A DNA stretch of 64,000 nucleotides, taken from positions 1,251,501 through 1,315,500 of the forward strand of contig NZ_CP009283.1 of the NCBI RefSeq assembly GCF_000758625.1. The letters are read 5' to 3'. The notes below the pieces were generated by a model. It saw only the letters and a list, made by a program, of their open reading frames with translations. It did no database searches and had not been told where the DNA came from. Positions within the stretch are counted from its first letter, which is position 1. Every line of letters begins with the position of its first letter. This document shows positions 1,890-64,000 of the stretch, piece after piece. The DNA is from Paenibacillus sp. FSL R7-0273 (GTDB lineage Bacteria; Bacillota; Bacilli; Paenibacillales; Paenibacillaceae). The translations under genes were made by a program, and so were the position numbers.

Positions 1890-1913
1890 TGGTTTAATAT
1901 GGGATGAAATAGG

Positions 1914-2117: not shown

Positions 2118-2181
2118 CCGCCATGGCATGATGCGAGGTATACTCAAGTCCTAAAACTGATTCAACATGGAGGATATGCCC

Positions 2182-2724: not shown

Positions 2725-2729
2725 ATTGG

Positions 2730-2772
2730 AACAAAAAGAAGCATTTCCATTAATGGTAATGCTTCTTTTGTT
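2730..2772. terminator. Bidirectional intrinsic terminator
   Basis: ACAAAAAGAAGCATT and AATGCTTCTTTTGT form a long hairpin with A-rich and T-rich flanks, between two convergent genes. It can serve both strands. Confidence 0.85.
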
Positions 2773-3145
2773 AAATCGGAAGCTCTCTCATTGTCCCTTG
2801 TACGACTGGAACGAAGTTTTTCTCTCCCCAAGTGCACATCATATCCATCACCGGAATAAGCGATTGTCCTCTCTCGGTCAATGAATACTCAACTTTAGGA
2901 GGGATTTGGGGGAATTCCTCGCGCCTGACGAGGTTGTCTGCTTCCAGTTCTTTCAACATTACGCTTAACGTTTTAAAGGGTATTGTCCCGATACCCCGCT
3001 GCAGCTCATTGAACCGCACGATCTTGTTTTCAGATAGATAGTAGAGAATAGTCATTTTATATTTACCGCTAATGATAGACAAAGTGTAGCCGAAGTTAGT
3101 GTCCTTCTGTTGAAAGCCAGGCAGTATACAGCTTTCATCGCTCAT
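2771..3145 (-). CDS. HxlR-family transcriptional regulator with Cys6
   Basis: 124-residue winged-helix regulator of the HxlR (DUF24) family. The core reads GKYKMTILYYLSENKIVRFNEL, shown here in part, then a recognition region ending LSVMLKELEADNLVRRE and a wing PPKVEYSLTERG. Cys6 occurs at the same place as the redox-sensing Cys6 of Bacillus subtilis YodB, as I recall that protein; a second cysteine lies near the C-terminus (MCTWGEK). ATG has AAGGAGGG at good spacing. Convergent with the quinone reductase, so it is a likely thiol-based sensor controlling it; the family role is known, the target is inferred. Confidence 0.9.
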   Translation of the reverse strand: MSDESCILPGFQQKDTNFGYTLSIISGKYKMTILYYLSENKIVRFNELQRGIGTIPFKTLSVMLKELEADNLVRREEFPQIPPKVEYSLTERGQSLIPVMDMMCTWGEKNFVPVVQGTMRELPI

Positions 3146-3664
3146 GGCCTATTACCCTCCTTCAGAAGATATTTAACGAAAGGGCTAACGTCTGTTGCCG
3201 CTCCGTACTCAGGTCCCGACTGGATTTATATTTTAAAACTTCCAATAAATCATCTTGCGAGCAACGAACTAACTATACCATTTTGAAACATTTAGTTCAA
3301 AGTACGCGTTACTAACTATCAATCGGCCGATTTTCTCTGTCAAAACTCTAATTCGCCATGCCAAGCTGACAATGCTATCAGCCAAATTACCATCATCTAT
3401 ATTCTATGATGTACAAATGACTATATCAAATATACCGGAGAACGCGAATGAAACTTTTTATGATTTATGAGACAGGGATCAAAACACCTTGCAAGTTTAG
3501 TAGCCAGTCGCGAAAATTTACCGGCGGCTGGCTATTTAGTTTCACTTGAATACGAATGGACTTATAGATGTAGTCTTGATCTGTCTCTATATTTCAGTTG
3601 AAGATTATGATTAAGGATATAACCCTTGCAATACAAATGATGTGTATGATGTGAGAGTACTTCT
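3146..3664. other. Gene-free 519-bp interval
   Basis: No reading frame with a ribosome site is seen. The right part of a promoter for the HxlR gene should lie near 3150-3320. At 3501-3534 a hairpin (TAGCCAGTCGC / GCGGCTGGCTA) is present but has only a broken T-run, so it is a weak terminator at best. Base composition is more AT-rich than the flanking genes. Confidence 0.5.
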
Positions 3665-4219
3665 CTACTCCCCAGCCTTCCTCCGCGCCCGGAACCGCCG
3701 CACCTTCATGAGATTTCCGCACATTTTATCGTCACAATACCGCTTTGAGCGGTTGCGTGTATCATCATAATAAACCCAGAGACAGTCGGGGTTATCACAG
3801 ATACGGATGCGGGATAGTTCTTTCTCCAGCACGCCCTCGGCAAAAGATGCTGCAATCTCAGCCATGACCTGTCTCCAATCGCTGCGCTGCGGCAGGAGGG
3901 CAAGCTCTGGAGGCTGGTCGGGTTTACGGACGATTTGCCGGATAACCGGACCGGCCGTCATATAGCTGTTCAACTGGTCAAGCAGTGCCTGATCCGGTGC
4001 CATTCCCTGTACAAGCTGCTGGACTTCTTCCCACAGCAAACTGCGCAGCTCCTTAAGCTGCTGTAATTCCTCCGGCTTTGCCTGTGCAGCTGCCGGCAGC
4101 CCGTGCCGTTCCAGCCAATCTGCCAGCCACTGCGGATCGTCCAGACGGTCGCGGTCACCACTGCGGTCGCCAGTCCGCCAGTCCCGCCAATAGCTGTTAA
4201 TATAATCATCCCAAAGCAT
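3665..4219 (-). CDS. CGNR zinc-finger (ABATE domain) regulator
   Basis: 184 residues. The N-terminal part is the helical ABATE-type region (a Trp- and Asp-rich start, then LQQLKELRSLLWEEV). The C-terminal CGNR finger is clear: Cys141, Cys146, Cys162 and Cys167, with the CGN triplet at 167-169 followed by the basic helix RRFRARRK, which would contact DNA. Length is normal. ATG is preceded by AAGGAGGG. It stands alone between gene-free intervals. Known family members are transcription factors that respond to stress or small ligands; no target is visible here. Confidence 0.87.
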   Translation of the reverse strand: MLWDDYINSYWRDWRTGDRSGDRDRLDDPQWLADWLERHGLPAAAQAKPEELQQLKELRSLLWEEVQQLVQGMAPDQALLDQLNSYMTAGPVIRQIVRKPDQPPELALLPQRSDWRQVMAEIAASFAEGVLEKELSRIRICDNPDCLWVYYDDTRNRSKRYCDDKMCGNLMKVRRFRARRKAGE

Positions 4220-6615: not shown

Positions 6616-7281
6616 CTACTTAATAACAAGGCCGAGCAGCCCGGCAAAAGAAGCCGCCTGATCTGCTGAAATAATGCAGCCCGGCAAGTCCTCAAGGTCC
6701 ACCTGCAGTCCGGTGAATTCGCAGCTGCTCAAGTCGGTGTCCTTCAGCTTGACTCCGGCCATGACGGCCTGATCCATTGTGCAGTCCTCAAAGGTAACCT
6801 TTTGAAAGTCAGCCTGATAATAATCAGCGCTGTTCAGCGAGCATTGCCCGAAGGCGGTCAGCTTGAGCTTGCCGAACCGGAAGCTGGCAAAATCGCAGAG
6901 CGAATCAGTCACAGAGACATTCTGAAAGCGGGCGCGGGTAAAGTCGGTACCGATCATTTTGCATTGTCTGAACTCGGTCCGGTGGACGAACGCTTCACTG
7001 AAATCTACATTAGAGAGGTCGCAGTTCTCAAAGATCACATCCGTCAGCTCAATGGCACGGAGTGTGGACTCGCTGATAGTGACGTTTTTGAATAATACCT
7101 TGTCAAAGGAGACCTTCTCCGCCTCCTGATACTCCAGTTGGATATCGCTGATCTGGCAGCGGCTGTATTCCTCCTTGGTCTGCAGTGAATCTAGATGCTG
7201 CGGCGGCAGGAGGGCAGGGTCCGGGAGTTTTGGGGTTTCGATTTTATCGTTTTTTTCAGCTTTATCACTTTTGTTCTTCAT
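6616..7281 (-). CDS. Pentapeptide-repeat protein
   Basis: 221 residues. After a charged, Pro-rich head (1-40), residues about 60-195 show pentapeptide-type repeats with the central Leu/Phe every five residues (for example FENCDLSNVDFSEAFVHRTE, then TDFTRARFQN, SADYYQADF). Such repeats fold into a right-handed quadrilateral beta-helix. No membrane segment. Members mimic DNA, bind partners or have no known role; nothing in the context decides. The promoter region is shared with the divergent amidohydrolase gene. Confidence 0.85.
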   Translation of the reverse strand: MKNKSDKAEKNDKIETPKLPDPALLPPQHLDSLQTKEEYSRCQISDIQLEYQEAEKVSFDKVLFKNVTISESTLRAIELTDVIFENCDLSNVDFSEAFVHRTEFRQCKMIGTDFTRARFQNVSVTDSLCDFASFRFGKLKLTAFGQCSLNSADYYQADFQKVTFEDCTMDQAVMAGVKLKDTDLSSCEFTGLQVDLEDLPGCIISADQAASFAGLLGLVIK

Positions 7282-7310
7282 GTGAGCCTCCAGGTAGCAA
7301 ACGTTTATAA

Positions 7311-7335
7311 ATGAAGATTACCTTCATCTGGTAAT
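7311..7335. promoter_or_regulatory. Dyad cluster in divergent intergenic region
   Basis: ATGAAG-ATTAC-CTTCAT (7311-7327) and ATTACC / GGTAAT (7317-7322, 7330-7335) are interleaved inverted repeats in the 118-base gap between divergent genes. This is a possible operator; no regulator is assigned. Confidence 0.35.
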
Positions 7336-7399
7336 TATTATGCGGTAAACTCTCTCCTGAATGCAAACAAACATTCTGTGCTGGAGGGTTTATTTTCTC

Positions 7400-8557
7400 A
7401 TGAAAAATGAATCAATTGTGCTGAGAAACGGGACGTTGATCGATGGAACCGGAGGTCCGCCTATACCTGACGTAACGATTGAAATCGTAAACGGCCGCTT
7501 CAGAGCCATTACACAGCAAGAGATAAGCAGCCGGATAAAGAATGAGAATGTACAAGAGATTGATTTAAGCGGGCTTACAATCCTGCCGGGATTTATTCAT
7601 GCCCATGCGCACACCGGCTTTAAATGGCTTCAGGGTCAGCCGCTGCACGGATACCACAAGGAATATCTGTCTGCCTGTCTCAGGGAGGGAATTACTACGG
7701 TCCGTGACGAAGGCATGACAACGGACGCAACGATTGACGACGTGATCTTGCATACCAATCAGCTGGACAGCTTGGTTTATCCCAGAGTCCTCACCTCAGG
7801 AAAAGTGTTCACGGCTCCCGGAGGCTACGGCGGACAGGCGCCTATAGGGGTTGCAAGTGTGGAGGAAGCCGGAATCAAGGTCCGGGAGGTGCTGTCGCAA
7901 GGCGTTCATTTTATCAAAACAGCACTGGAAGACGGCTATGATCCCAGCACCTTCGGACTGCCCAAGCTTAATCAGGAACTGCTGCAGGCCATTTGTCAGG
8001 AAGCTGCAAAAAACGGAGCTCATGTGTCTGCCCATGTAACCAGCTCCCGTAATCTGCAGATAGTAGTGGATGCCGGGATTAACGATGCTGCGCATATGGT
8101 CTATGACCGCCTGGACGACGGTCTGATCCGGCAGATGGTAGAGCAGAACATCCGGATCGTTCCCACACTTACTGTGCTGCAGATGTTCCAGGATAAATTC
8201 GGTGCACCGCTGCTGCAGCAAGGTCTGGATAATGTCCGCAGGTTTGTCCTGGCAGGGGGAGAAATTGGTTTTGGGGATGATTTTGTAGAAGAGGAAAGTC
8301 CGTGGTACAGGCTGGGAATGCCGTGGGAAGAGATCCGTCTGCTAGGGGAGGCCGGTCTTACGCCGATGCAAATTATTGTAGCGGCAACCTCAACCGGTGC
8401 AAAGATAGGTAACGTATCTCATGAGCTGGGAACAATCGAAACCGGCAAGAGGGCGGATTTGTTTATTATTGAAGGAGATCCGCTGTCTGACATAGGGAAC
8501 CTCCAAAACGTCAGATTAGTGATGAAGGCCGGTCATATTGTTTTTTCCCGGATATAA
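7400..8557 (+). CDS. Amidohydrolase (imidazolonepropionase/prolidase-like)
   Basis: 385 residues from ATG 7400, which follows GGAGGG (7383-7388); an upstream ATG at 7361 precedes that ribosome site and is not used. Metal-dependent hydrolase of the amidohydrolase superfamily: LRNGTLIDGTG start, PGFIHAHAH metal motif (His67-His71), FIKTALEDG with the bridging lysine, metal histidines in VSAHVTS and DAAHMVYD, and an Asp in GFGDDF. The C-terminal GTIETGKRADLFIIEGDP strand pair closes the beta-sandwich. The substrate (peptide, cyclic amide or other) is not decided by sequence. No signal peptide is present. Confidence 0.88.
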   Translation: MKNESIVLRNGTLIDGTGGPPIPDVTIEIVNGRFRAITQQEISSRIKNENVQEIDLSGLTILPGFIHAHAHTGFKWLQGQPLHGYHKEYLSACLREGITTVRDEGMTTDATIDDVILHTNQLDSLVYPRVLTSGKVFTAPGGYGGQAPIGVASVEEAGIKVREVLSQGVHFIKTALEDGYDPSTFGLPKLNQELLQAICQEAAKNGAHVSAHVTSSRNLQIVVDAGINDAAHMVYDRLDDGLIRQMVEQNIRIVPTLTVLQMFQDKFGAPLLQQGLDNVRRFVLAGGEIGFGDDFVEEESPWYRLGMPWEEIRLLGEAGLTPMQIIVAATSTGAKIGNVSHELGTIETGKRADLFIIEGDPLSDIGNLQNVRLVMKAGHIVFSRI

Positions 8558-8770
8558 ATTACTTCTATAATATAGCGGCAGTCCGGAACGAGCTGAACGT
8601 TGCTTTTTCCGCGGCGGCTGCTTCTTTCTGTCTAATAGCAGGTATACCCGCCCGGCCAGCCGGATGTCCGTACAAATACACCTGCGGCGAGTACAATCAC
8701 ACCTCGTTTTGTAAGCGCTATCAACCTAAGATGGAGGGGAAGTCCATTTTTGCTTAGAGGGGGCGCATTT

Positions 8771-11700
8771 ATGAAACGCTTCAGGTCACTGGTAGCTGGG
8801 CTGCTGGTGCTGCTGCTTATGCTGCCGGAGCTGTCTGTTTTTGGTGCGGGCGGGAGTCCGGCGGAAGCGGCAGGGGTCGGTGGAACAGGGGCAGGGCAGA
8901 TTCCAACAGGCACAGTCCTGATCAGGAACAAGTGGAAAAGCAACTATCTGTATGAGACAAGCGAAGGAGTTGTAAGTTACGGGATGACCAATCCGGCAGA
9001 TACGTCTGCGCACTGGAAGGTGGAAACATCGGAAGGTGTATCAAGGATCAAAAATGTCAAAACAGGCCACTACATCACGCTCGCCGGTAACGCCGGCAAA
9101 GAGGATTCCTTAAAAGCAGCAGCTAGTGCGGGTGAAGGGAGCGCATCCGAGCAGTGGCTGATTGATCTGTCGAACCGAAGCGGGTATATGGTCATCCGCA
9201 GTGCAACTGTGCCCGAAGGCAGGCTGGTCATCCATCAGGAAAATCAGCTCGGCTATGCCCAGGTCAGCTCGGACATTAATGTGACCTTTGAAAGCCCGCA
9301 GTGGGCTTTTATCGATCTGGGCGCAGCGCCTGCGGTGCGGCTGGAGAGCCGGATGCGTCCCGGTCAGGTGATGTATGAAGCAGAAGGCAAGGTACTCTAT
9401 GGCAGAGCAGCGCTGGGCAATGAGGCCGCGCAGTGGTTTCTGGAGCCGGGGGAGGCTGCGGGGACAATAACGATCCGCAACCGTGCGACCGGACATTATA
9501 TCAAGCAGAATACGGAGCACTGGTCCGGTGTTGCAGCGGAGGCTATTGATCCGGCTGACAAAGGGCTGAGCGAATGGTTCCAGGAAGCAGCCCTGGGCGA
9601 TGACGGGGCAGGCTACATCACTCTGCGCAATCACGGACTGACCGACGGAGGCAAAGAGCTGTGGCTGAATCCGCAGTACGGCGATGATAACAATGTGCGC
9701 TCTAACAACTGGCCGGGCTGGGCAGGCAATCACAGTGCGCAGTGGATGATCGTGCCGGTTACAGAGCTGCAGCCTGTGCGGATAGCGGCGTATACCGATG
9801 CGCAGACGGCGGCGGATTACCTCTATGAAGCTTCCGGCGGAGCGTTAGCGCATGGGGCGGTTGCACCGGAGGCGGCAAATGAGAACAGCTATTTATGGTA
9901 TGTCGAGGATTATGACGGCCATAAACGGCTGCGCAACGCGTCGAGCGGTCATTACCTGTCTTACACCGGGGATACGGTAAAAGCACTGGCGCTCAGCGGC
10001 AGCCAGCCGTCCGACCGGTGGATATTCAATGAATCGGATGATTATGACGATTATCAGACGGTTGAAAATGTGCAGAGCCCAGGCGTCTATCTGGCGATGC
10101 TGGCAGGCGGCGGAGCCGGTGCCGGAACGGATGCGGGTACACTTGCGGCGCAGTGGCAGCTGCTTGACCCGGGCACTCCGACCGATAACACTGAGCATTA
10201 TTACAGGATTCAGAACGGCTGGCAGTCCTTTTACTGGTACGAGAGCAAGGAAGGGCTGCTGAAATACGGCAATATGCAGGAGGATGGCTCTGACCAGTGG
10301 CTGGTGGAGAAATATAACGGGCGCAAGCTGTTCAAGAACCGCAAAACCGGCCACTACATCAATATAGCGCAGATGCCGGACGGGCATATTCAGGTGAGCC
10401 CGCTGGCGGACAAAGTCCATGTGGATCAGGCTTACATCTGGACCGGAAAAAATACAGGTGACAGCACCTACGTTATATCCAATGTCATCGATAAGGAGCC
10501 GGGCAAACGTCCTGAAAAATATATTTCCCTGCAAAACCTGACTAAATATGCCGAGTATGGCGTTATTAATCCGGATTGGGGCAGCCCGAAGTGGAGATTC
10601 GTTCCGGTAACGGAGAAGAAGCAGGAGCTGTTCCGCTTCCGGCTTAACAGTGTGAACGGGGAGGAGCAGTATTTGCAGGATGGTCCTGTACCGGCTGCAC
10701 AGGAGAATGGACGGAAGCTGGCGGAAGGCGGGGTTTCGGTTACGGAGGAGGTGTATGGTCAGCATTCCGGACTAGAGGTGCAGATTGCAGATTCTTGTGA
10801 AAAGAGTGCACCGGCCGCTGGGATAGGAAATGAATCCGTAGGGTGGACAACACAGCTGGAACCTGCTGAGGAGCAGGCGGGTTTGCACTCGGGAGCGGCC
10901 GTTACCCCTGCTGCTGTCACTGACATGACGGTCGGCCAGGCGACATACGGTACGCTTGACCCGGAGGATGACAGCTTTGTATGGCAGCTGCAGGAAATCC
11001 CGGGTACCAACGGGGCCGTGAAGATTAAGAACAGGGGGACGGGCAGATATCTCTCGCTGCAAAATTTCGGTGAGGCGATTGAGCAGGAGTCACCGGACCT
11101 GGCTGTTCCTACTGAGCAGACGGTCTATGATGTCTGGGCCAGCATCCGGTGGGTGGTAGATATGCAGCTATCAGGTGTTTCTACTATTAAAAGCGCCTGG
11201 GCCGGCCATTATCTGTACGGTGCAGCCGGTGCAGACGGAGAACCGGTCATCCGCATCAGTAAAGCGGCAGATGCCTCCGCTATGGACAGCTCACAGTTCA
11301 CCGCCGAAGCGGTAACAGAAGCTCCACCTGCGGTTCCGGCATATCCGCTCAGATTCAAGAACGCGCAGACCGGCGACTACCTCTATGAAAATGAGCATGG
11401 TGTAGTCCTCTACGGCCAGCCTGCAGCGGATAACGGCTACTCGCACTGGACGATTTCAGGGGGAACGGACGGTCAATTGATTGTTAACCGGGCTACCGGC
11501 CATTACCTGACGCTGACCGGGGATTATTCATTCCTGGAGGGCGGCGCTGAGCCGGATACGCACGGTGCTTCAGTCTGGAAAGTAAGCCTCGCTGCAGATT
11601 ACCGCAATTACCTGATCCGCAGTTTATACGGGGAATATGACGATGAACTGATTAATCTGAGTCATAAAACCGGCTATGCCGAGCGCGGCCTGCTGCTGGA

Positions 11701-44456: not shown

Positions 44457-44469
44457 GAGGATGAGGAGA

Positions 44470-44658
44470 ATGATGATAACGATGGCAGAAGCCGCCAAGC
44501 GGCTGTGGAAGGATGAGGAGGGACTGGGCACGCTGGAAATGATTATGATCATCGCCGTATTAATCGCGGTAGTTCTCGTATTCCGCACAGAAATTGTTAA
44601 GGTGGTCAGGGATCTGATCAGTACGGCGGGAAGCAAGAGCCAGGAAGTTTTTGAATAA
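44470..44658 (+). CDS. Flp-like type IVb pilin, 62 aa
   Basis: 62 residues from ATG 44470, which has AGGAGG (44455-44460) 9 bases upstream; an ATG at 44461 abuts that site and is less likely. Short basic leader, then EEGLGTLEMIMIIAVLIAVV: a prepilin-type G/T boundary followed by Glu at position +5-like spacing and a single hydrophobic helix. C-terminal tail is short, as in Flp1. Probably the main pilus subunit, cleaved by the prepilin peptidase encoded at 48661. Confidence 0.85.
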   Translation: MMITMAEAAKRLWKDEEGLGTLEMIMIIAVLIAVVLVFRTEIVKVVRDLISTAGSKSQEVFE

Positions 44659-48660: not shown

Positions 48661-49176
48661 ATGTTGGCAGGATGGGCCTTTTGGGGCTGCCTGAGCATTC
48701 TGGCAGGAGCCTTTGCTACGGATTTGCGGTGGATGAGGATACCGAATTGGATTTCGGTAACGGCTCTGGTTACCGGATTGCTGTTACGGGGCATTGCAGA
48801 TGGCGGCAGCGGTCTGCTGTTTGCACTCTCCGGCGCGGCTGCAGGCTTTGCCGCCCTGCTGCTTATGTATATGATGGGGGCGGTCGGAGCCGGGGATGTA
48901 AAGCTTTTTGCAGGTATCGGAGCCTGGACAGGAATCTGGTTTACACTCCAGGTCATTATGTACTCTGTGCTGTTCGGGGCGGTGATAGGCTGGATTATCG
49001 TACTGTTCAGGCGGGAAACAGCTGTGAGGATCCGCAGTATAGTCAGCAGAACTGCCGGCTTTCTGCTGATGCGGAAGCCGGGTCTGCTTATAAACGGCAT
49101 ACACGGTCAGGGGCTGAGATTTCCGTTCATGCTGGCTGTAATTCCCGGATTTGTTTATACCTATTTCTGCTTTTAG
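48661..49176 (+). CDS. tadV: Prepilin peptidase TadV/CpaA (A24 family)
   Basis: 171 residues, five to six membrane helices. Aspartic catalytic residues Asp21 (ATDLRWMRIPN) and Asp79 in GAGDVKLFAGIGAW are both present. It lacks the methylase domain, as TadV-type enzymes do. Cleaves the Flp-like pilin and TadE-like pseudopilins. It is the only prepilin peptidase in the window and could also serve the second Tad-like operon. Confidence 0.94.
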   Translation: MLAGWAFWGCLSILAGAFATDLRWMRIPNWISVTALVTGLLLRGIADGGSGLLFALSGAAAGFAALLLMYMMGAVGAGDVKLFAGIGAWTGIWFTLQVIMYSVLFGAVIGWIIVLFRRETAVRIRSIVSRTAGFLLMRKPGLLINGIHGQGLRFPFMLAVIPGFVYTYFCF

Positions 49177-54508: not shown

Positions 54509-54545
54509 GGCATTTTGGCGAAGTCTGCCAAGGTGCCTTTTTTTG
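54509..54545 (+). terminator. Intrinsic terminator between purU and second Tad-like operon
   Basis: GGCATTTTGGC-GAAGTCT-GCCAAGGTGCC followed by seven T. It ends purU and leaves 34 bases before the next start, so the next operon's promoter must be very close or lie within purU. Confidence 0.88.
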
Positions 54546-54578: not shown

Positions 54579-55346
54579 TTGGCTTCACAGCGCGGACAAC
54601 TGTTAAAACGCAATTATCTGTTTGCTTTTCTTATTCTGTTCACCGGCTTCGGCGGGCTGCTCGGCTACGACCTCTACTTTAAGCCATATGTATTATCTCA
54701 GACGGTGGTCAAAATTAAAGCAGCCGATGGCGGATTCATACCGAAAAACTATCTGCTGCAGCAAGATGACCTCTATCTCGATTCCGTCCAGACCAAAGAC
54801 ATTCCTTCAGGCGTCATTACGGAGCTGAGTCAGGTGGAGAACAAAATTACTAATGTGAATCTGATGGACGGCAGTATTCTGACGGCTTCGCTGGTCGATG
54901 TGAGTGATCTGGAGCCGCAGGCGGATGAGGGGATATTCCCCATCCCGAAGGAAGCGATTTATGCCATCAACGGCTCGCTGCGCAGCAGAGACAAGGTGGA
55001 TATTTACTTAGTAGAGGGTGATAAAGCCAACAACCCGGGAAGCAGAAGCACCAGCATAGGGAGTTCTCAGCAGCCCGCAGGCATTACTGCTTCTGAAGAC
55101 GGGGCAGAGGGAGCAGGACTTACACCGCCTGTACCAAAGGCATTTTTGAGCGGCGTAACTGTAAACTATGTGCGGTCAGAGGATAACAATGATGTGCTGG
55201 ATTCAGAGAATGGCAACACCAACAACCGCGTTACTTCTACCGGCAAGGTGGCAGCCCCCGAATTAAAGCTCAAAAAGAGCGACGGTGAGCTGCTGGGGCA
55301 GTATCTGGAGCAGGGCCTGAAGCTGTGGATCGTGCGCGTAGAATAA
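54579..55346 (+). CDS. SAF/CpaB-like pilus assembly protein
   Basis: 255 residues from TTG 54579 (AGGGAGGT upstream; the earlier frame start at 54543 is within the terminator T-run). N-terminal membrane helix (about 13-32, LFAFLILFTGFGGLLGYDLY), then an SAF-type domain: VVKIKAADGGFIPKNYLL, SVQTKDIPSGVIT, DGSILTASLVDVSD. After a Ser/Gly/Asn linker the C-terminal part has LGQYLEQGLKLWIVRVE. This matches the layout of CpaB/RcpC. The first Tad operon lacks such a gene. First gene of the second operon. Confidence 0.77.
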   Translation: MASQRGQLLKRNYLFAFLILFTGFGGLLGYDLYFKPYVLSQTVVKIKAADGGFIPKNYLLQQDDLYLDSVQTKDIPSGVITELSQVENKITNVNLMDGSILTASLVDVSDLEPQADEGIFPIPKEAIYAINGSLRSRDKVDIYLVEGDKANNPGSRSTSIGSSQQPAGITASEDGAEGAGLTPPVPKAFLSGVTVNYVRSEDNNDVLDSENGNTNNRVTSTGKVAAPELKLKKSDGELLGQYLEQGLKLWIVRVE

Positions 55347-55374
55347 AGCATAAGAAAGGAAAGGAGGGAGCTCT

Positions 55375-56439
55375 ATGAAAATCTTCAGTTTAGGTATCGA
55401 GCAGCTGACGATTAACGAGATGAAGCTGGCGGGATTTACGGTTATTACGCAAAATGTGCTGCCTGAGCCGGCGCATGCCGAAGGCCAGCTGCTTCTGGTT
55501 ACCAGTGAACAGGTGCCTGTATCCGCACTGACCGAGCTAAGCCGCAGGTTTGTGAAGTCCATCATTCTGTACCTGTATCTGCAAAGAGGAGTCCGCGGTT
55601 ATCAGGCTGTCCATATGCTATGCGAAAGTCTGGGCATCTTCTTTATTCCCCCGCGCTCCACAGCCTCGGCCATTATTGAAAAGCTTCGTTACATCATGGA
55701 GGAGGAACGCGAGGAGCGGAGCAGTCTGGTCGGCTTTTTCGGCTCCGGCCCGGGAATTGGCTGTACCAGTGTAGCCAAGCTGTTCGCCAGAAGGATTGCA
55801 GCGGCTGGATTCCGGGTGATTCTGCTGGGGCTGGATTTGTACGATCCCGGATATGACCGTAAGACGGCAGTCAGCCTGGACAGGCTACGGCCGCGTATTA
55901 CGGGCAAAATGCTTAACGGCGAGGATTTTGAAGGGTTTGTTAAGCAGGACGGATATCTGTACCTGCCCGGTAACTTTGACTATCTGAGTGTCCATGACTA
56001 TCAGGAGGAGGAGATTGCCTATCTGCTGGCAGAGGCGCATCTGCATGCGGATGTGGTCGTGGCTGATTTCGGCTCAGTTCCGGAAAGCGCCGCATGGTAC
56101 ACCGGAATGCAGAGATCAGCACTGCGCATGATGGTTACCCATCCCCGGCACGAATACCGGCTGCAGGCTCTGATGGAGCTAGCCGGACATATGGATCTGC
56201 ATCCGCAGGATTTTCAGTGGATCGTGAACCGCAGCAATGTAGAGGAGATGACCTCACCCAAAAGCCTGGCGCTGCGCTTTGGCTGTGAGATTCTGCTGGA
56301 GCTGCCGCATTATCAGCCGCTGCTGGACAATCTGCCCTTAGGCAAAAAGGAACTGCAGCATGTGGATGATAAGGTTCACGCTCTGTTAGTGTCACTGGGA
56401 CTTGCGGTTGAGGTGCGGAAGAAGGGGATCTTTCAATGA
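55375..56439 (+). CDS. CpaE/TadZ-like protein lacking the P-loop lysine
   Basis: 354 residues. N-terminal receiver-like half (1-110), then a ParA/MinD-type fold with GFFGSGPGIGCTSVAKLFAR at 120-139. Where a Walker A would give GKT/S, the sequence reads GCTS (Cys130), and the signature lysine is also absent. LDLYDPGYD and VVVADFGSVPESA keep the shape of switch regions. It may bind nucleotide weakly or only serve as a placement scaffold. AAAGGAGGG precedes the ATG. Its stop overlaps the start of the motor ATPase gene (ATGA). Confidence 0.75.
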   Translation: MKIFSLGIEQLTINEMKLAGFTVITQNVLPEPAHAEGQLLLVTSEQVPVSALTELSRRFVKSIILYLYLQRGVRGYQAVHMLCESLGIFFIPPRSTASAIIEKLRYIMEEEREERSSLVGFFGSGPGIGCTSVAKLFARRIAAAGFRVILLGLDLYDPGYDRKTAVSLDRLRPRITGKMLNGEDFEGFVKQDGYLYLPGNFDYLSVHDYQEEEIAYLLAEAHLHADVVVADFGSVPESAAWYTGMQRSALRMMVTHPRHEYRLQALMELAGHMDLHPQDFQWIVNRSNVEEMTSPKSLALRFGCEILLELPHYQPLLDNLPLGKKELQHVDDKVHALLVSLGLAVEVRKKGIFQ

Positions 56440-57896
56440 TTGAATTCAAAATGGACCCGCCACAGGAAGCGCGGCAGCTGTTCTCCCTGAAACAGAGCGT
56501 GCTCCGCACAAGCAAGCCGGGAAAAGAAGATTTTTATACCTTCCTGCACAGGATGAAGCAGGACATGAACGCCGGGCTGGAACGGGAGGATGACAGCTAT
56601 TTTGAGCTTAATGCCAAGGCACTGACGGGTGATCCGCAGGCAGTCAGCTTTTTTATGAATGAGATTGAAAAATATCTGCGTAAAACACCGTTTACCGGCA
56701 GGGTACCGGAGGCTTACCGTACGGCTGCGGAGGCGCTTTTCCATGAATGGAAGGGGTTTGGTCCGGCTTACCGCTGGTTCACTGAACGTGCCTATAGCGA
56801 ATCAACCGGGCTGCAAATGATCGGACGGCAGATCTTTTATAATCACCGCGGTACATTTGTCGCTTATCCGTATGATATGCCCTCGCTGGACCGGGTGGAG
56901 CAGCTCAAACGCGCACTTCTCAAGAGTGATCCCGACAAAAAGCTGAACAAGGACAATCCTTCGGTCGAGTTCAAGATGGATGATCCGCTGTGGCCCGGCC
57001 GGTTCATCCGGCTTGCGATATGGGTGTCACCCAGAGTATGGGAGGGCTTCACAACCATCTCCATGCGGCGGCAGGTGGTTGAGTTCCTTGATCTGGAGGA
57101 TCAGGCGGGCACGGAATGTATCCCTGCGGAGGCCATTGAGCTGATCCGTGCACTCACGGCCACCTTCCGTAACACCATTATCGCGGGTGCCGTCGGTTCA
57201 GGGAAAACCACCTTTGCGAATACCATTGTAGGCGAACAGCTGCTGGGCTCAAGCTCCTGCATGGGTGTGGTGATGATAGAGAAGCATCCGGAGTCGATTT
57301 TGCCGTATCAGATCAAGGGTCACCGGATTATTCCGATCCAGGCTGCTAACGAGGAACTGATGGAGGTTGGTGTGGAGTCGCTGCGCCATGATCCGAATAT
57401 TCTCTATATGACTGAAATGAGATACAACGAGTGGGAGTTCTATCTGTGGAGCGGCGAGAAGGGATATGACGGCATTACAGGAACCTTTCATACAGTTGAT
57501 TCCGAGGATATTCCGTACCAGGGTGCTTTTGCGGTCTCTACCCGGATCGGCGGCAGCCTGAAGGGTCATCTGATCTCGGCGCTGAAATCCTGTGAGCTGG
57601 TGTTTATTCTGGAAAGTGTCCCGGACGGGAAGAAGCGGCTGGCGCGGATCTCCGAGGTGTTTTATGACGAAGAATGCAATTCGGTATTTGCCAATGATCT
57701 GATGCGCTGGGAGGATGAGCGGTCGGCCTGGAGCTATAATGACAAGCTGACCGGGAAGCTGATGACCAAGATGACCAAAAAGAATGCCGCAGCGATGCGT
57801 ATATTCATCCGGGAGCTGGGGCACCTGGCAGCAATGAAGCCGATGGAGGAGCCGCTGAAGGAAAGCCTGAAGTCCAGAATCGTCTTGAACGAATGA
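56436..57896 (+). CDS. Divergent CpaF/TadA-like secretion ATPase
   Basis: 486 residues. ATPase core: Walker A GAVGSGKTT (251-259, Lys257), Asp box region VVMIEKHPE, Walker B-like NILYMTEMRYNEWE with the glutamate, and His-box region GITGTFHTVDSED. The N-terminal domain (1-230) is not like TadA of the first operon and carries FKMDDPLWPGRFIRLAIWVS. Probable motor of the second pilus-like system. Starts at ATGA with the preceding gene. No close family can be named with certainty. Confidence 0.83.
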   Translation: MIEFKMDPPQEARQLFSLKQSVLRTSKPGKEDFYTFLHRMKQDMNAGLEREDDSYFELNAKALTGDPQAVSFFMNEIEKYLRKTPFTGRVPEAYRTAAEALFHEWKGFGPAYRWFTERAYSESTGLQMIGRQIFYNHRGTFVAYPYDMPSLDRVEQLKRALLKSDPDKKLNKDNPSVEFKMDDPLWPGRFIRLAIWVSPRVWEGFTTISMRRQVVEFLDLEDQAGTECIPAEAIELIRALTATFRNTIIAGAVGSGKTTFANTIVGEQLLGSSSCMGVVMIEKHPESILPYQIKGHRIIPIQAANEELMEVGVESLRHDPNILYMTEMRYNEWEFYLWSGEKGYDGITGTFHTVDSEDIPYQGAFAVSTRIGGSLKGHLISALKSCELVFILESVPDGKKRLARISEVFYDEECNSVFANDLMRWEDERSAWSYNDKLTGKLMTKMTKKNAAAMRIFIRELGHLAAMKPMEEPLKESLKSRIVLNE

Positions 57897-57909
57897 GGGG
57901 GAGTTAAGC

Positions 57910-58959
57910 GTGGAGCTTGTCTTTTATATGATCCGCCTGGCCCTCCACTTACTGGTTGTGTTCGGTCTATGGCTGATGGTAAAACCGCTGATTGAGCGGC
58001 ATTTGAGGCAGCTTGGGCAAAAAATTGATCTGCAGATGAACCTCAGGAGAAGTCTGCTCCGCAAAAAGGCCAGCAGGGCGGACAAGCGGATCTGGCTGTA
58101 CCGGCATCTGGATGATCTGCTGTATTTTGCACACCGGAGATATGAGCCTGGAATCAGTGTAATGCGCTTTTCGCTGCAGACCGTATGTTTATTTGCTGCG
58201 GTATTTCTGTCCACGCTGCTTACGCTCAAGGAGCTGCCCGGGCATATGAGCTTCAGTAATCCTTTTCTGGAGGGGGTCAGCTTCGGTGAACGGATGCCGG
58301 TTCAGGAGGCCTGGCGACTTCCGCTGTTTATCTCCGTCATCGCAGCGAGTGTTCCGTATTTGCGGATGAGATATACCTATGCCCAGCGAAAGGTGCGCGG
58401 CAGCTACGATTTGCTGGATGTGATCAAAATTGCCTCCAAATTCACGCATCTGTCGGTGGACAGCATTTTATCAAGAACGGCGGATTTTTTAACTGAGGAT
58501 AATGTGCTGAAGACCCCGTTGAGGCTGCTGGGTGCGGCTTTTTCCAACTACAGCAATGAATATGAGCTCAAAGAGGAGGCGCTGCGGTTCTCCGGTGCGA
58601 TTGGCACTACGTTTGCCATAGAATTTGTGTCGGATCTGCTGTACTGCGAGAAGGAAGGCACCCGTTATCTCAAAAGCTCGCTTATGATGCTCAACCGCTC
58701 GATGGAGCAGCAGCGCGAGACCATTATGACCGTAAAAGCGGGCAGCCGGGATGCAATCAGCCTGGGATTGTACGGCAATCTGGTTGTACTGGTGTCCTCC
58801 GTAGGAACTTTTATGTACATGCTGAAGCCTGACGTCTATTTCAAGCTGCAGTTTCAGACGAAGGTCGGTCTTGCCTTTCTAATGGTCATTATTTCCGGTC
58901 TGTTTGTTTCCTTCATAATCAGTACCATACTTGCCAGGCCTAAACTGGACTACCACTGA
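57910..58959 (+). CDS. TadB-like platform membrane protein, divergent
   Basis: 349 residues from GTG 57910 with GAGGGGGAG upstream. Membrane helices at about 8-25, 85-105, 135-150, 295-315 and 325-345. Between them is a helical cytoplasmic domain (YDLLDVIKIASKFTHLSVDS ... FVSDLLYCEKEGTRYLKSSL) with T2SF-like arrangement but little motif identity to the first operon's TadB. Position after a CpaF-like gene supports a platform role. Confidence 0.7.
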   Translation: MELVFYMIRLALHLLVVFGLWLMVKPLIERHLRQLGQKIDLQMNLRRSLLRKKASRADKRIWLYRHLDDLLYFAHRRYEPGISVMRFSLQTVCLFAAVFLSTLLTLKELPGHMSFSNPFLEGVSFGERMPVQEAWRLPLFISVIAASVPYLRMRYTYAQRKVRGSYDLLDVIKIASKFTHLSVDSILSRTADFLTEDNVLKTPLRLLGAAFSNYSNEYELKEEALRFSGAIGTTFAIEFVSDLLYCEKEGTRYLKSSLMMLNRSMEQQRETIMTVKAGSRDAISLGLYGNLVVLVSSVGTFMYMLKPDVYFKLQFQTKVGLAFLMVIISGLFVSFIISTILARPKLDYH

Positions 58960-58970
58960 GGTGAATTGAG

Positions 58971-59840
58971 ATGGAGCGGTTATTGCTTTTGATTGCGGTG
59001 TGCGGGGTTGTGTATCTGTCATTGCTGGTGTTTGTGAGCAGCAGCACCAGGCAGGAGCGATATGCGTTAAGGCTTGGCATCAAGTGGGCCTCATTTGGTG
59101 AAAAGCTTGAGAATGAGCGGCTGCAGCAGCTGCTATATTCAAGCGGTCTGTCAGTATCTGCAGGTAAAATAACGATTTTCCGGTACTCGGCAGCATTGAT
59201 TTATCTGGCTGTTCAGGCGGTCGGCAGATTTGTGCGGGTAGCACCGTTTTCCGGTACAGACCTGCTGGTTGCTCTGCTTATTCTGATGATCAGCAGTCCA
59301 ATGCGTTATCTGCCGTTTGGCTGGCTGCTCGCCTGGCTGCATCAGAAAACGCTGATCCAAAAGGACGGTGAGCTGATCTCCTTCATCCGGCTATATGAGA
59401 ACAACAGGCTGCGTAAGCGCGGGTATGTGCAGTTCGGTGCCTTCTGTGCAGGAACGGCCAATCAGTTTTATCATATCCGTCAGGATTTGTTTGAGCTGTC
59501 CGAACGGGCGGTGGATGAAGGAACAGAAAAGGCTATCGAGTGGTTTTGCAGCAAGTTTCCGGAGGGCCATGCTTTTATTAATGATATCCGTTCGATTCTG
59601 CTGGCGACAGAAGGGATGGATGACGATACCGAAGCCGCCAATTATTTGCGGGAGCAGGGCAAAATCATTACCAAAATATCAAGCGATCAGTATTTGAAAA
59701 AATGGTCCTTCATCGGTGATGTCTCCACGCTTATTAATGTAATTCCGTCGATTGCCACGTTTCTGATGATCGTCTCGCTGGCGATGCAGTATATCATGCT
59801 GATAAAAGGGAATTTCAACGGGGTAGGAATGTTTCAGTGA
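58971..59840 (+). CDS. TadC-like platform membrane protein, divergent
   Basis: 289 residues; GAGGTGA lies before the ATG. Membrane helices at about 3-22, 65-80, 90-125 and 255-280. Middle domain FIRLYENNRLRKRGYVQFGA, ERAVDEGTEKAIEWFCSKFP, then FINDIRSILLATEGMDDDTE could be a T2SF-like helical domain. It is the second of a pair, as TadC follows TadB. Sequence similarity to known TadC is low by eye. Confidence 0.65.
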   Translation: MERLLLLIAVCGVVYLSLLVFVSSSTRQERYALRLGIKWASFGEKLENERLQQLLYSSGLSVSAGKITIFRYSAALIYLAVQAVGRFVRVAPFSGTDLLVALLILMISSPMRYLPFGWLLAWLHQKTLIQKDGELISFIRLYENNRLRKRGYVQFGAFCAGTANQFYHIRQDLFELSERAVDEGTEKAIEWFCSKFPEGHAFINDIRSILLATEGMDDDTEAANYLREQGKIITKISSDQYLKKWSFIGDVSTLINVIPSIATFLMIVSLAMQYIMLIKGNFNGVGMFQ

Positions 59841-59940
59841 TTTTACCATGGCGCTTGGTGGCCGGGAATTTACTTATATGAGGATTTTGCTATATTCAAG
59901 CACTGATTAAAAATATAAAATGAAAAGGGAGATTTTAACA

Positions 59941-60156
59941 ATGAAAAAAGATGCTATTTCTACCGGTTTGTTTATCGCTATCGGTTTTCTGTGTGTGGCT
60001 ATTGTTATTGCGATTCTGGTTCCTGTAGTCCGGGATGTAGTCAATGATGCGGATGATAACAGACCGGATATTCCTGGTGTGAGCGTAACTATGATTCAAC
60101 CCCATGAACATGAGCAGTTGAATGCTGATGCTGCTTTGCTTTATTCTGCGGTCTGA
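59941..60156 (+). CDS. Miniature pilin-like membrane peptide 1 (71 aa)
   Basis: 71 residues from ATG 59941 with AAAGGGAG upstream. MKKDAISTGLFIAIGFLCVA then IVIAILVPVV gives one hydrophobic helix (about 8-30) after a short KKD leader. The outer part is acidic and short (DVVNDADDNRPDIPGVSV). No classical prepilin G-x-x-x-x-E cleavage site is seen. A possible promoter lies in the 100-base gap before it (TTACTT ... TATATT). Strong paralogy to the next 47-aa peptide. Confidence 0.72.
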   Translation: MKKDAISTGLFIAIGFLCVAIVIAILVPVVRDVVNDADDNRPDIPGVSVTMIQPHEHEQLNADAALLYSAV

Positions 60157-60162
60157 TCAGCT

Positions 60163-60306
60163 ATGAAAAAGGATTCCATTTCAGTCGCCATGTTTTTGGC
60201 CATCGGTTTTGTGGTCGCCGGGATATTCATCGCAGCGGCTACGAATATAATCGGCGGCAGCCAGGATGATATCATCGAGCACACCAAGCAAGTTGAGCAG
60301 TACTAG
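60163..60306 (+). CDS. Miniature pilin-like membrane peptide 2 (47 aa)
   Basis: A very short gene: 47 residues from ATG 60163 to TAG 60306. It reads MKKDSISVAMFLAIGFVVAG then IFIAAATNII, a clear paralogue of the preceding 71-aa peptide (KKD-IS...F-AIGF shared), and ends in a polar tail (GGSQDDIIEHTKQVEQY). It lacks a good ribosome site of its own, and starts 6 bases after the preceding stop, so translation is probably coupled. Confidence 0.72.
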   Translation: MKKDSISVAMFLAIGFVVAGIFIAAATNIIGGSQDDIIEHTKQVEQY

Positions 60307-60320
60307 AGGGAGGAGCCGGG

Positions 60321-60701
60321 ATGAAGGAAACCGTCCTGCGGGCATTGTTCATGTGGCTGGTCTTATTTATCCTCCTTCAGCCTATTTTCACTTATATTGA
60401 TTATCTTCTGGATCTGCAGGTCAAAGCCAACACCTCGTATATTACACAAAAGGCTGCTACAGAAGGTCTGGTCACCAGCTCTATGAAAAGTGAAGTTATA
60501 GCCAATCTTAAGGCTGTGGGCTTTCCCGAGGCATCCATTGATATTTCGAGCAATACGGAGACAGTGCAGGAGCGCAAGCAGCGGCTTGATGTGTACATTA
60601 GTGCGCCCCGGTTAAATTTGTTTCCTTATGATTTCTCGGGAAAGTCTCAGCCGTCACGTTATTACGGACACGGTTCAATAATGAGTGAATATTTAGACTA
60701 A
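60321..60701 (+). CDS. Bitopic membrane protein of second Tad-like operon (a)
   Basis: 126 residues; AGAGGGAGGAG lies upstream. One membrane helix at about 8-28 (RALFMWLVLFILLQPIFTYI), then an outer domain QKAATEGLVTSSMKSEVIAN and RKQRLDVYISAPRLNLFPYD. Size and topology are similar to minor pilin or TadE-like proteins, but the conserved Glu is missing. No family recognised. Confidence 0.7.
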   Translation: MKETVLRALFMWLVLFILLQPIFTYIDYLLDLQVKANTSYITQKAATEGLVTSSMKSEVIANLKAVGFPEASIDISSNTETVQERKQRLDVYISAPRLNLFPYDFSGKSQPSRYYGHGSIMSEYLD

Positions 60702-60721
60702 TTGAGGAATGGTTCTGAGCT

Positions 60722-61219
60722 ATGGACTACATAATCAAACTGGCCTTTGTCCTGCTGATCTTTGTCTACTCCTGGTTTTTTCAGATTCAAAATCAGGAGT
60801 GGGACATTCTGCGCAGCATGCTGAAGGATGCCAACAACATGGCTGTACATGATGCATCACAGGAGCTTGATGAAGCTGAGCGGTCACAGGGCCGTCTGGT
60901 CATTGATCCCGCTGAGGCTTACACCACCTTCCGGGAGTCATTGCAGTACAACCTGGGACTGGATTCCGGCTTGTCGCCCTTGGCAGGCAGCAGACTGCAG
61001 ACACAAGTGAAGGTTGTAAAATTCGATATTGTTGATGATTCAACAGGAGTTGCTTTTCCATTTCTCTATGAAGACAGTGCTTATGGCATTACAAAATACA
61101 TACAAGGCCCTTCGGTTATAGCGGTCATTGAAACACAGCATCCCGTCCTTATTTCACGATCGAAGGTCCAGGAGGCCATCGTTGTTCCGGCGGTGCAGGA
61201 GTATAGGACGGAAGATTAA
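60722..61219 (+). CDS. Bitopic membrane protein of second Tad-like operon (b)
   Basis: 165 residues. N-terminal membrane helix at about 4-21 (IIKLAFVLLIFVYSWFFQIQ), then an outer domain with MLKDANNMAVHDASQELDEA (reminiscent of the AxxDAA region of TadE/TadG-like proteins) and VIAVIETQHPVLISR near the end. Probably a minor pseudopilin-like part. No sure family. Confidence 0.7.
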   Translation: MDYIIKLAFVLLIFVYSWFFQIQNQEWDILRSMLKDANNMAVHDASQELDEAERSQGRLVIDPAEAYTTFRESLQYNLGLDSGLSPLAGSRLQTQVKVVKFDIVDDSTGVAFPFLYEDSAYGITKYIQGPSVIAVIETQHPVLISRSKVQEAIVVPAVQEYRTED

Positions 61220-61250
61220 AATCAGATGAACATTAAAGGAGAGATTTCAA

Positions 61251-61889
61251 ATGAAGAAGACAATTCTTAAAGTAACTGCAGCTGCGCTATTGGTGAGTCA
61301 ATTCTTGACTCTGGGTGCCGGATTCCAGGAGAATACAGCATCAGCTGCCGCACCCGTAAGCACTGCTAAGCCGGTTCCTGTTATGACAGATAATTTGTTT
61401 AAATATGGTCTTAAAAAAGATGTGGAACTGCCTGTAACGGTTACTGCAGGCGGGCTTAGCTATACGCTTGAAAAGATTATGATTTATGATTACAACTCTA
61501 AAGATGCTTTGGCGTTGAGGAAACTTTATAATTACGGGAAAAATGCAGGTTCGATTTCAAATCCTAAATATTTCATTTGGACTAAAGTCACAATTAAAAA
61601 TAACTCTCAAAAAGTTGCCCAAAAGAATTATAAGGACTTAAACCCTAAATGGCGTTTGTTTTTTGATACATCCCTGGCAAAGGGAGAAGCATTTACCCCA
61701 ATGCCGTATGCATTAAAAACGGAAAACAATGAAAAAGCACTATTCACATATTCTATTGCACCAGGAAAATCACTTTCTAGTTACCAAGCTTATTTGTATC
61801 AAGGAGACTTTAAATTTTTCCGAATTTTAATGCAATTCAATAATGAGTCAAAACTCCAATCTATAGTAAATGATACGGAGGCAAAGTAA
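61251..61889 (+). CDS. Exported protein of unknown function, 212 aa
   Basis: Signal peptide MKKTILKVTAAALLVSQFLT with ASAAA cleavage near 33. The mature part has beta-strand character (VELPVTVTAGGLSYTLEKIM; YFIWTKVTIKNNSQKVAQKN), similar in look to DUF4352-like extracytoplasmic domains. AAAGGAGAG precedes the ATG. Clearly more AT-rich than the genes around it. Its stop overlaps the start of the next gene (TAATG). Confidence 0.72.
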   Translation: MKKTILKVTAAALLVSQFLTLGAGFQENTASAAAPVSTAKPVPVMTDNLFKYGLKKDVELPVTVTAGGLSYTLEKIMIYDYNSKDALALRKLYNYGKNAGSISNPKYFIWTKVTIKNNSQKVAQKNYKDLNPKWRLFFDTSLAKGEAFTPMPYALKTENNEKALFTYSIAPGKSLSSYQAYLYQGDFKFFRILMQFNNESKLQSIVNDTEAK

Positions 61890-64000
61890 TGAAGAAATTT
61901 ATCATCTATATGCTAGTCGCTTTTTTAGTGGCGATTAGCATACCGATGGCTCCGGTAGAAGCAGCAAATTCGACCTCTGTATCAATTCCAGTTACAACAG
62001 GTGTAATAGGGAATGATGGTAGTGCAAAATCTTTTATACTTGATCTTCCAAGTAACGTAGTATCCTCAAGCATATCAACATCCAGTTTAAAGTATGTTGG
62101 ATCAAATGAAGTGGTTGGAAGTATTGCTTTAGAAAACGGGAAAATTAAAGTTACTTTAAAAGGTGTGAGCAATTCAAAGACTATAGACGTTTATGGTTAT
62201 AATTCTGGAAATGGGCTTGCTTTCAACAGTAATATAGGAAACTCAATATGGCGCTATTCAGATGGTAGAAGGTGGCAAATTAACGATTATAATCCTACCA
62301 CAGACCGTATGGAGAGTAGAGATAAAAACGCAGAGGATTCAGCGATGCCATCTAAGAGAGTTCCAATTACAATGGTTAACGCGAAATCAAACCAAATTAC
62401 AGCTGGACGTTACTGGTATACCAGTGCAGGTGAAAAAATTGATTCTCAATACATAGTTACAAATACAATTAAAACTGAGCTTATGGACAAATCTGCATAT
62501 GTAAAAGAAGTTAAATTCCCCAATAGCAATATCGTTACTACTTATAAAATTCCTATCGATGATTTGGATGAAGATTGGTTAGATGTTACTGAGACAGCAA
62601 CAATGCCAATTACACAGCATGTTGAGGGCCGATTCTATTCTGCTTGGGTAGCGTATTATTATAAGGCAACGGCAAAACTGACGTCTTATAGCTATGGTGG
62701 GAAGGTTTCCTTCGACTACTCACCGCCAACTGAGCCTACACTCGACGGCAGCGTAAGTGTCCTTAAGCCCTCCCCGAATCCAGCAAAGTTTGAGGGAAAG
62801 GACACTGCTGTGTCCTTGAAGGTAAAAGGCGATCTATTGGCTTATATTAATTCATCTAACATCGAAGAATGGGTGTTTTATGCCAAAGAAACCGGATCTA
62901 CTGATGTGAAGACAAAGAAGGATTACAACAAGGTCCTCACCAGTACGCAAGCCTTTGATAACTTTGTTATTTCTAAGAGTAGGGGCAGTAATGTCAAGCA
63001 AGAGTATACCCTTACGGTTACGGTTCGGTTCTCTAAACCAGTAGTGACCGGGAGCGGAACAATTTCATCACTCTCAAAAACGATGAAAGCAACCGTAGAA
63101 GTCTCCGATGCTCCTGTGTTTTCACCTCCGCCAGTCAATAACAATAAGCCACCTGTTGCAGTACTGGACGTCCCGGGTGAAGTAAAGGCCGGATCTGAAT
63201 TTTTGATGTACGGTAAGGATTCCTATGATCCTGATGGGAAGATTGTAAAGTATTACTATAGTGCTCCCAATACCATGGAACCGGTTGATGGAGCGTTCGG
63301 ATTTACCTGGTATCCGCTAACTGCGCTGGGTGAGCATTCGGTGCTGCTAACGGTAACCGATAATGGCGGATTAACCGGATCAACCAGTGCCCAAATCAAT
63401 GTCATTCAGCCAACCCCTGTAGCAGAGATTTTCGTGGATGGCACAAAGAAAGAGAACCGGAAAGTAACGTTGGTCAGTAGAAGCCGAAGTCCGGAGCATT
63501 ACCCTATTGACGAGTCGAAAACGCAGTGGACCATTTCCGCAGTATCCGGAGGTACTGCAGCTGATATTAAGTACCTTGGCTCGCTATCAGGAATGAACTC
63601 CAAAGATGTTCTTTTTAAGAAACCTGGGACATACCGAGCCACTATTACCGTAACCAATACAGCCGGATTTAGCCATTCTACAAGTACAACTTTTGAGATT
63701 GTACCGGATGAAGTGCCAGTCGTATACATCTCTGTGCCTAATAAGATTTACCGTGACCCCGGTCAAGGCAATATGGCAAGTGCTGCACTGACAGATATGT
63801 CATTTTCCCCGGACTTTGACTTCATAGGCCGTCGTATTTGGGAGTACCGGTATGACTCCAACAATGACGGGAATTTCACAGATGAATCCTGGGTGATCTT
63901 TTCTAATGAGAACAAAAGTGCATTTAATCTGCAGCTGGGGAAAGTCGGGCGGTATGAAATAAAGCTCACTGTAATTGAAGAGTTTGATCAGCCGACCATC
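61889..64000 (+). CDS. Large exported PKD-type surface protein, 3' end outside window
   Basis: Open for 704 codons from ATG 61889 to the window edge without a stop. Signal peptide MKKFIIYMLVAFLVAISIPM with AxA cleavage (VEAA). Unknown beta-rich region to about residue 410, Pro/Asn linker (SPPPVNNNKPP), then at least one PKD domain (PVAVLDVPGEVKAG; SYDPDGKIVKYYY; GEHSVLLTVTDNGG) and more Ig-like units after it, with FDFIGRRIWEYRYDSNNDG near the edge. The first 800 bases are AT-rich, unlike the upstream operon. Likely the adhesin or tip protein displayed by the second pilus-like system; this role is inferred from position. Confidence 0.82.
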   Translation, partial: MKKFIIYMLVAFLVAISIPMAPVEAANSTSVSIPVTTGVIGNDGSAKSFILDLPSNVVSSSISTSSLKYVGSNEVVGSIALENGKIKVTLKGVSNSKTIDVYGYNSGNGLAFNSNIGNSIWRYSDGRRWQINDYNPTTDRMESRDKNAEDSAMPSKRVPITMVNAKSNQITAGRYWYTSAGEKIDSQYIVTNTIKTELMDKSAYVKEVKFPNSNIVTTYKIPIDDLDEDWLDVTETATMPITQHVEGRFYSAWVAYYYKATAKLTSYSYGGKVSFDYSPPTEPTLDGSVSVLKPSPNPAKFEGKDTAVSLKVKGDLLAYINSSNIEEWVFYAKETGSTDVKTKKDYNKVLTSTQAFDNFVISKSRGSNVKQEYTLTVTVRFSKPVVTGSGTISSLSKTMKATVEVSDAPVFSPPPVNNNKPPVAVLDVPGEVKAGSEFLMYGKDSYDPDGKIVKYYYSAPNTMEPVDGAFGFTWYPLTALGEHSVLLTVTDNGGLTGSTSAQINVIQPTPVAEIFVDGTKKENRKVTLVSRSRSPEHYPIDESKTQWTISAVSGGTAADIKYLGSLSGMNSKDVLFKKPGTYRATITVTNTAGFSHSTSTTFEIVPDEVPVVYISVPNKIYRDPGQGNMASAALTDMSFSPDFDFIGRRIWEYRYDSNNDGNFTDESWVIFSNENKSAFNLQLGKVGRYEIKLTVIEEFDQPTI

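Follow-up and report, generated by a model that had tools for sequence, protein, structure and literature searches.

The 64-kb window analysed here is a stretch of the Paenibacillus sp. FSL R7-0273 chromosome (NZ_CP009283.1, positions 1251501-1315500, forward strand, catalogued as contig C1 of genome G000; 7.29 Mb in one contig). From position 54579 onward it carries an operon that probably encodes a divergent, self-contained machine of the Tad family (type IVc-like), which would build a filament or pseudopilus from subunits synthesised leaderless. The 12 genes of this operon lie on the plus strand in the order B (CpaB-like), E (CpaE-like), F (motor ATPase), T1 and T2 (platform proteins), p1 and p2 (tiny membrane peptides), bt1 and bt2 (bitopic proteins), followed by three genes for exported proteins (Table 1). 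A 2023 review describes leader cleavage by a prepilin peptidase as necessary for the assembly of type IV filaments; in its account the last leader residue is invariably Gly or Ala, and processing precedes assembly (PMC10191384). Neither a leader motif on the subunits nor a peptidase gene is present in the operon described here.

The frames were scanned for the class III motif, defined as Gly/Ala, four uncharged residues, Asp/Glu and a hydrophobic stretch. Automatic start choice misplaced some starts in both sets; frames were read from stop to stop, and the result is therefore independent of the chosen start. The scan covered bt1, bt2 and the frames of standard Tad operons. The motif was present in all Flp (11/11), TadE (11/11) and second TadE-like (11/11) frames of the standard set, 33/33 together, and in 0/11 TadG-like frames. 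For the divergent family it was found in 2/52 bt1 frames (loci L104 and L106) and in 0/58 bt2 frames; the Flp profile also picked up two family frames, that of L106 with the motif and that of L104 without it. The assessment of the tiny peptides used their N-termini, in the family loci other than L105, L107-L110 and L113; L039 and L053 yielded no candidate. In the loci examined the helix follows the start after a few residues at most, except in L104 and L106, where leaders precede it. The subunit N-termini leave almost no room ahead of the hydrophobic helix. For the tiny peptides of L048, L056 and L057 the preferred upstream start adds 10-22 residues, and an ATG is also found at the conserved position. 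L111 and L112 have a leader-like stretch on bt1 and bt2 and none on their tiny peptides. In the window, an in-frame ATG at 59920 would lengthen p1 by seven residues. The first ATG/GTG/TTG of the p1 frame in the genus copy L039 (7516-7695) falls inside the conserved helix; either translation begins at a different codon there or the gene is altered.

L104 also holds, on a 722-kb contig and beside a divergent Tad-like ATPase, five tandem pilin paralogues with full class III leaders (7117-8949, minus strand). Comparison of the mature leader-bearing pilins with the leaderless peptides gave 47.6% with a start offset of two residues, and 30 permuted controls reached at most 20.5%; the alignment score is weak, yet the two are in register.

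With the A24 profile, a prepilin peptidase gene was found in all 11 standard Tad stretches, that of the window among them, and in one of the 58 family stretches fetched, the leader-bearing L106, where it follows directly after bt2. The scan of the divergent operon itself found no A24 gene, which ruled out a hidden peptidase. Outside the fetched stretches, A24 genes lie 36 kb off in L104 and about 8 and 11 kb from bt2 in L111 and L112. Those near the family operons of genomes G214, G377 and G433 were considered as counter-evidence and set aside, since they belong to standard Tad operons. We surveyed 114 of the 145 machine-bearing genomes found (the remaining 31 include 19 of the genus). An A24 gene was detected somewhere in 112 of the 114 and in neither G088, a closed single contig of 5.75 Mb, nor G017, a draft of 110 contigs; both are Paenibacillaceae. 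A TadV query gave nothing in G088 and nothing better than E = 0.01 in G017. PF06750 had nothing above cut-off in these two genomes, nor in G023 and G043, which do carry an A24 gene, so this profile tells little about TadV-type enzymes. In G088 and G017 the family ATPase is the sole T2SSE match, compared with 3 to 7 matches in six relatives of the same two genera; with one match each, neither has a recognisable competence pilus. By contrast, Imam et al. 2011 state that a com operon and pilD/comC occur in every member of the Bacillales they examined (PMC3244431). The genes of the G088 family operon are uninterrupted. From these sequences, the machine seems to have persisted there after the peptidase and all other recognisable type IV systems were lost.

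Gene order and substitution rates show that the operon is real. As the initial annotation had described for eight or more same-strand genes with overlaps or short gaps, all genes listed there are present on the plus strand, with intergenic gaps of -4 to 31 bases throughout, except 100 bases before p1. The operon opens with a TTG start directly preceded by a GGAGG site and extends beyond the window: its last gene encodes a 1,300-residue exported Ig/PKD protein and ends at about 68045, before a gene on the opposite strand. Copies of ATPase F, 87-100% identical, were found in 20 of the 22 genus genomes sampled, own genome counted; G150 and G191 gave weak matches only. The gene set also travels together: in 14/14 genus loci fetched from the 20 positive genomes all 12 genes are collinear and the same opposite-strand gene comes next. 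This neighbour encodes a 243-residue protein without a Pfam match (L006, 14592-15323, minus strand). The ratio of nonsynonymous to synonymous substitution rates (dN/dS) was taken as the median over pairs with unsaturated dS, out of 91 pairs. It was 0.044-0.095 for the eight machine genes besides p1, for instance 0.044 for the ATPase (33 pairs), 0.047 for p2 (65), 0.050 for bt1 (63) and 0.068 for bt2 (43), and 0.19 for p1 (83 pairs). The three exported proteins gave 0.24, 0.14 and 0.18 (63, 11 and 5 pairs). Low dN/dS indicates purifying selection on the small genes; with the conserved order, it identifies the tiny reading frames p1 and p2 as genes and rules out chance open reading frames or decay, and the contrast in dN/dS indicates that the machine is conserved while its exported partners evolve faster.

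The components were compared with known families one by one. A profile of ATPase F against the Protein Data Bank (PDB) placed CpaF structures on top (E = 1.1e-45), above VirB11 and PilT, and in NCBIfam its top match was TIGR03819, far under the cut-off. Aligned with hhalign, T1 matched TadB at 95.1% and T2 matched TadC at 87.5%, and the order, TadB then TadC, agrees as well. A direct Pfam search gave no T2SF (PF00482) match for T1 and T2 of the window, and T1 matched no PDB sequence; PF00482 is precomputed on some T1 relatives. The CpaE- and CpaB-type partners matched TIGR03815 and TIGR03177 below the curated cut-offs. The tiny peptides had no Pfam match and aligned to the Flp profile at 2.9%, by which a standard Flp in disguise was ruled out; none of p1, p2, bt1 and bt2 matched a Flp or TadE profile. 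Structure models of bt1 and bt2 have a pilin layout, and fold searches with them returned no firm match. On the leader-bearing relatives, Pfam gave sub-threshold Tad matches only (PF13400, E = 0.00096 in L104). Sequence comparison marks F, T1 and T2 as divergent relatives of Tad components, and the leader-bearing family members loosely tie the bitopic proteins to Tad pseudopilins. The earlier proposal of a separate pilus-like machine holds: the gene set is a unit, a classical Flp and a peptidase occur only in the standard Tad operon of the window, and the strong Flp or TadBC matches of peptides and platform genes that would have spoken against it were not found. Its claim of a difference from standard Tad at each component needs refining, since the ATPase and the two platform proteins are Tad relatives and the bitopic proteins are loosely linked to Tad.

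The Paenibacillus operon is one of a wide, unnamed family in Bacilli, for which bt2 serves as the marker. Within the taxonomic family, 114/197 genomes match the bt2 profile, of which two reach no better than 7e-5. Across the class the profile was found in 40/299 genomes; 31 of the 40 lie outside the family, 13 of them with E < 1e-15 and the others weaker. In the databases 436 proteins match bt2, with no Pfam domain among the 120 of these 436 matches listed. Relatives of the platform gene, at 23 loci, include Paenibacillus camerounensis, P. typhae and P. jilunlii. The core order recurs around bt2 in distant Bacilli, namely in the chromosomal clade B, in clade C and others, and in plasmid members. 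Clade C and others have large Ig/PKD, S-layer-homology or PF07833 proteins downstream. In clade B, 17/18 loci have no large exported protein there, so the core can exist without such proteins; the exception is L137 of G088, where a 975-residue exported-looking open reading frame follows the operon (877-3801, minus strand).

A tree of 56 ATPase sequences, obtained by a quick search, rooted on standard Tad by choice and with long branches, above all that of L104, separates standard from divergent ATPases (SH-aLRT 100). L104 and L106, which bear leaders, diverge close to the base, and the neighbours of L111/L112 are leaderless f22 rows. The 35 leaderless rows require two changes, with the fused-platform L007 and L113, leaderless by eye, counted apart. 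These sequences would be explained most simply by a shift of the start codon to the cleavage site, together with loss of the peptidase gene. We lean towards the view that a whole branch of the type IV filament superfamily abandoned leader processing, regarded as its defining step, in this way, with translation from the mature N-terminus, joint loss of leader and peptidase, a fibre of unprocessed subunits, and persistence of the machine in peptidase-free bacteria. In the literature searched, no title or abstract dealt with leaderless or peptidase-independent Tad-like filaments, nor with the divergent family.

From the gene content we infer fibre formation, the roles of the subunits, the absence of processing and adhesion as follows. 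The subunits p1 and p2 would sit in the membrane with few residues preceding the helix, and motor F, acting on platform T1/T2, would draw them from there into a thin fibre that bt1 and bt2 may start or cap and that E and B may place and guide. No prepilin peptidase would be required, because the start codon is already about at the mature N-terminus. The fibre would display or anchor the exported Ig/PKD proteins, which would supply its binding function. We favour such an adhesive fibre presenting Ig/PKD proteins in view of the shared operon, the faster change of the exported proteins, and the large exported proteins that adjoin the machine in several clades.

Other readings of the same genes were weighed. 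The initial annotation had left the choice between a shared peptidase and unprocessed subunits, and the evidence favours the latter, short of proof. It is unlikely that TadV from the standard operon nearby still cleaves the subunits of a Tad-like pilus at some atypical site: its gene does lie 6 kb upstream of the divergent operon, a standard operon with A24 also adjoins the family operon in G214, G377 and G433, nearly all hosts tested have an A24 gene, and the description of filament systems by Denise et al. 2019 has peptidases exchanged between systems (PMC6668835), but the frames lack the class III motif, the helix begins almost at the N-terminus, and two genomes combine the machine with no detectable A24. 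Rather doubtful, too, is a secretion or surface-assembly machine without a fibre, in which the exported PKD proteins would be the load of motor and platform, with a structural role for the small membrane proteins. The exported proteins at the operon end and subunits that match no known pilins would agree with it, as would the fact that the fibre is deduced from sequence. The nearly complete lack of large exported proteins in clade B argues against it, as do the Sec-type N-termini of the exported proteins (by eye), the clear pilin-type leaders of the leader-bearing members and the pilin layout of the bt1 and bt2 models.

Also of rather low probability is a mating-contact pilus: the machine would have come from conjugative plasmids, become fixed in the chromosomes of Paenibacillus and perhaps kept a role in cell-cell contact. 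As this reading concerns origin and use, it is compatible with the leaderless filament machine favoured here. The plasmid survey gave 29 records with the ATPase (E up to 1e-20). At least 15 of them have a coupling protein at a distance of 6-11 kb from the ATPase (14 by tblastn among 60 of 74 matches listed, one by annotation), five of which are near-identical Cytobacillus plasmids and not independent events. Two further records have the coupling protein at 57 and 38 kb, and the other 12 have none among the matches listed; on one of these, a B. velezensis plasmid, no coupling protein is annotated within 14 kb, which weighs against a mating pilus. Genes of type IV secretion systems (T4SS) lie elsewhere on three plasmids examined further, and on the contig of L048, the nearest relative outside the genus, TubZ and a coupling-protein match are found. 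We therefore infer that the Paenibacillus copy likely once lay on a plasmid. Against a mating-contact pilus, neither the window nor the clade B and genus loci fetched showed a coupling protein. As for the VirB4-type ATPase of a conjugative T4SS, the own genome had no AAA_10 match above cut-off. NZ_CP015507.1, NZ_CP077640.1 and NZ_CP068596.1, large Bacilli plasmids that PLSDB types as non-mobilizable, may be conjugative, since they have T4SS genes, a coupling protein and replication-relaxation proteins. An adhesive thin type IV pilus beside a conjugation system, as in the plasmid members, is also a feature of IncI plasmids such as R64; the R64-type pilus differs in being Gram-negative and in its processed pilins.

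With Tad or type IVc systems (TadABCZEFGV, RcpC, Flp1) the operon shares the CpaF-type motor and the split platform. Its tiny peptides (candidate major pilins) and its two bitopic proteins (candidate minor pilins) have counterparts there too, as may its CpaE-like and CpaB-like proteins. Unlike Tad systems, it has no class III leaders, its subunits have no Flp/TadE profile match, and its ATPases form a separate clade. A TadV gene in the locus, a Tad feature, is absent from 57/58 family stretches and from G088 and G017, and is present elsewhere in the window genome; such a gene may lie apart from the Tad locus in the systems described by Denise et al. (PMC6668835). The tad-like loci of Clostridium and Desulfitobacterium, as described by Imam et al. 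(PMC3244431), likewise have no gene with an apparent prepilin motif; going by that description they contain tadV, whereas here the peptidase gene is missing too. MSH systems also have loci without a prepilin peptidase, always alongside another peptidase-bearing system in the account given (PMC6668835), unlike the two genomes here with none detectable. The Kil/Tad pilus of Myxococcus xanthus is Tad-type as well and is described with special tip complexes for cell contact (PMC12075869); according to the same description, its minor pilins carry predicted processing sites, and its tips are minor pilin complexes, not Ig/PKD proteins.

Table 1. Features of the leaderless operon and reference genes of the standard Tad operon (positions in the window).
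Feature	Positions	Strand	Remarks
Terminator-like hairpin, 12-pair stem and T run	54509-54537 (L006 1010-1038)	+	Consensus scan only; precedes operon
B, CpaB/RcpC-like SAF-domain protein	54579-55346	+	SAF E 6.5e-4, TIGR03177 E 1.6e-3, both below cut-off
E, CpaE/TadZ-like protein	55375-56439	+	TIGR03815 E 3.8e-4, below cut-off; P-loop without lysine by eye
F, CpaF-like motor ATPase	56436-57896	+	Profile comparison
T1, TadB-like platform protein	57910-58959	+	hhalign to TadB; PF00482 on some relatives
T2, TadC-like platform protein	58971-59840	+	hhalign to TadC
p1, 71-residue leaderless membrane peptide, candidate pilin	59941-60156	+	
p2, 47-residue leaderless membrane peptide, candidate pilin	60163-60306	+	
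bt1, bitopic protein, candidate minor pilin	60321-60701	+	TadE-like position
bt2, bitopic protein, candidate minor pilin	60722-61219	+	Family marker
Exported 212-residue protein	61251-61889	+	Signal peptide by eye
Exported 745-residue PKD protein	61889-64000	+	Ends near 64126, beyond the window
Standard Flp pilin with leader	44461-44658	+	Comparison
A24 peptidase TadV of standard operon	48661-49176	+	Comparison

The standard Tad operon occupies about 40.3-50.8 kb of the window, with four other open reading frames between it and the divergent operon. It includes a CpaF (PF00437), TadC (PF00482), Flp (PF16982), A24 peptidase and an FHA protein; the CpaE-, TadB- and TadE-like genes were named from position and similarity. 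A standard operon with peptidase lies upstream of a leaderless one in the window (40300-64000) and in L146 (G214), L147 (G377) and L150 (G433). This adjacency is seen in three taxonomic families of the class and may reflect functional coupling or old linkage. Terminator-like sites such as the one preceding the divergent operon are not in excess regionally (10 found, 12.6 expected). A third Tad-like cluster of the same genome, L007 (G000:C1:2284000-2297000), encodes a 698-residue protein resembling a TadB-TadC fusion and a putative WXG100-like product; its three short membrane proteins are paralogues of one another and, by eye, leaderless.

If the reading favoured here is true, leader cleavage would not be intrinsic to the assembly of type IV filaments, and a peptidase-free motor system would be available for study. 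Many database genes labelled "hypothetical", including those on large Bacilli plasmids rated non-mobilizable, would likewise gain a working hypothesis.

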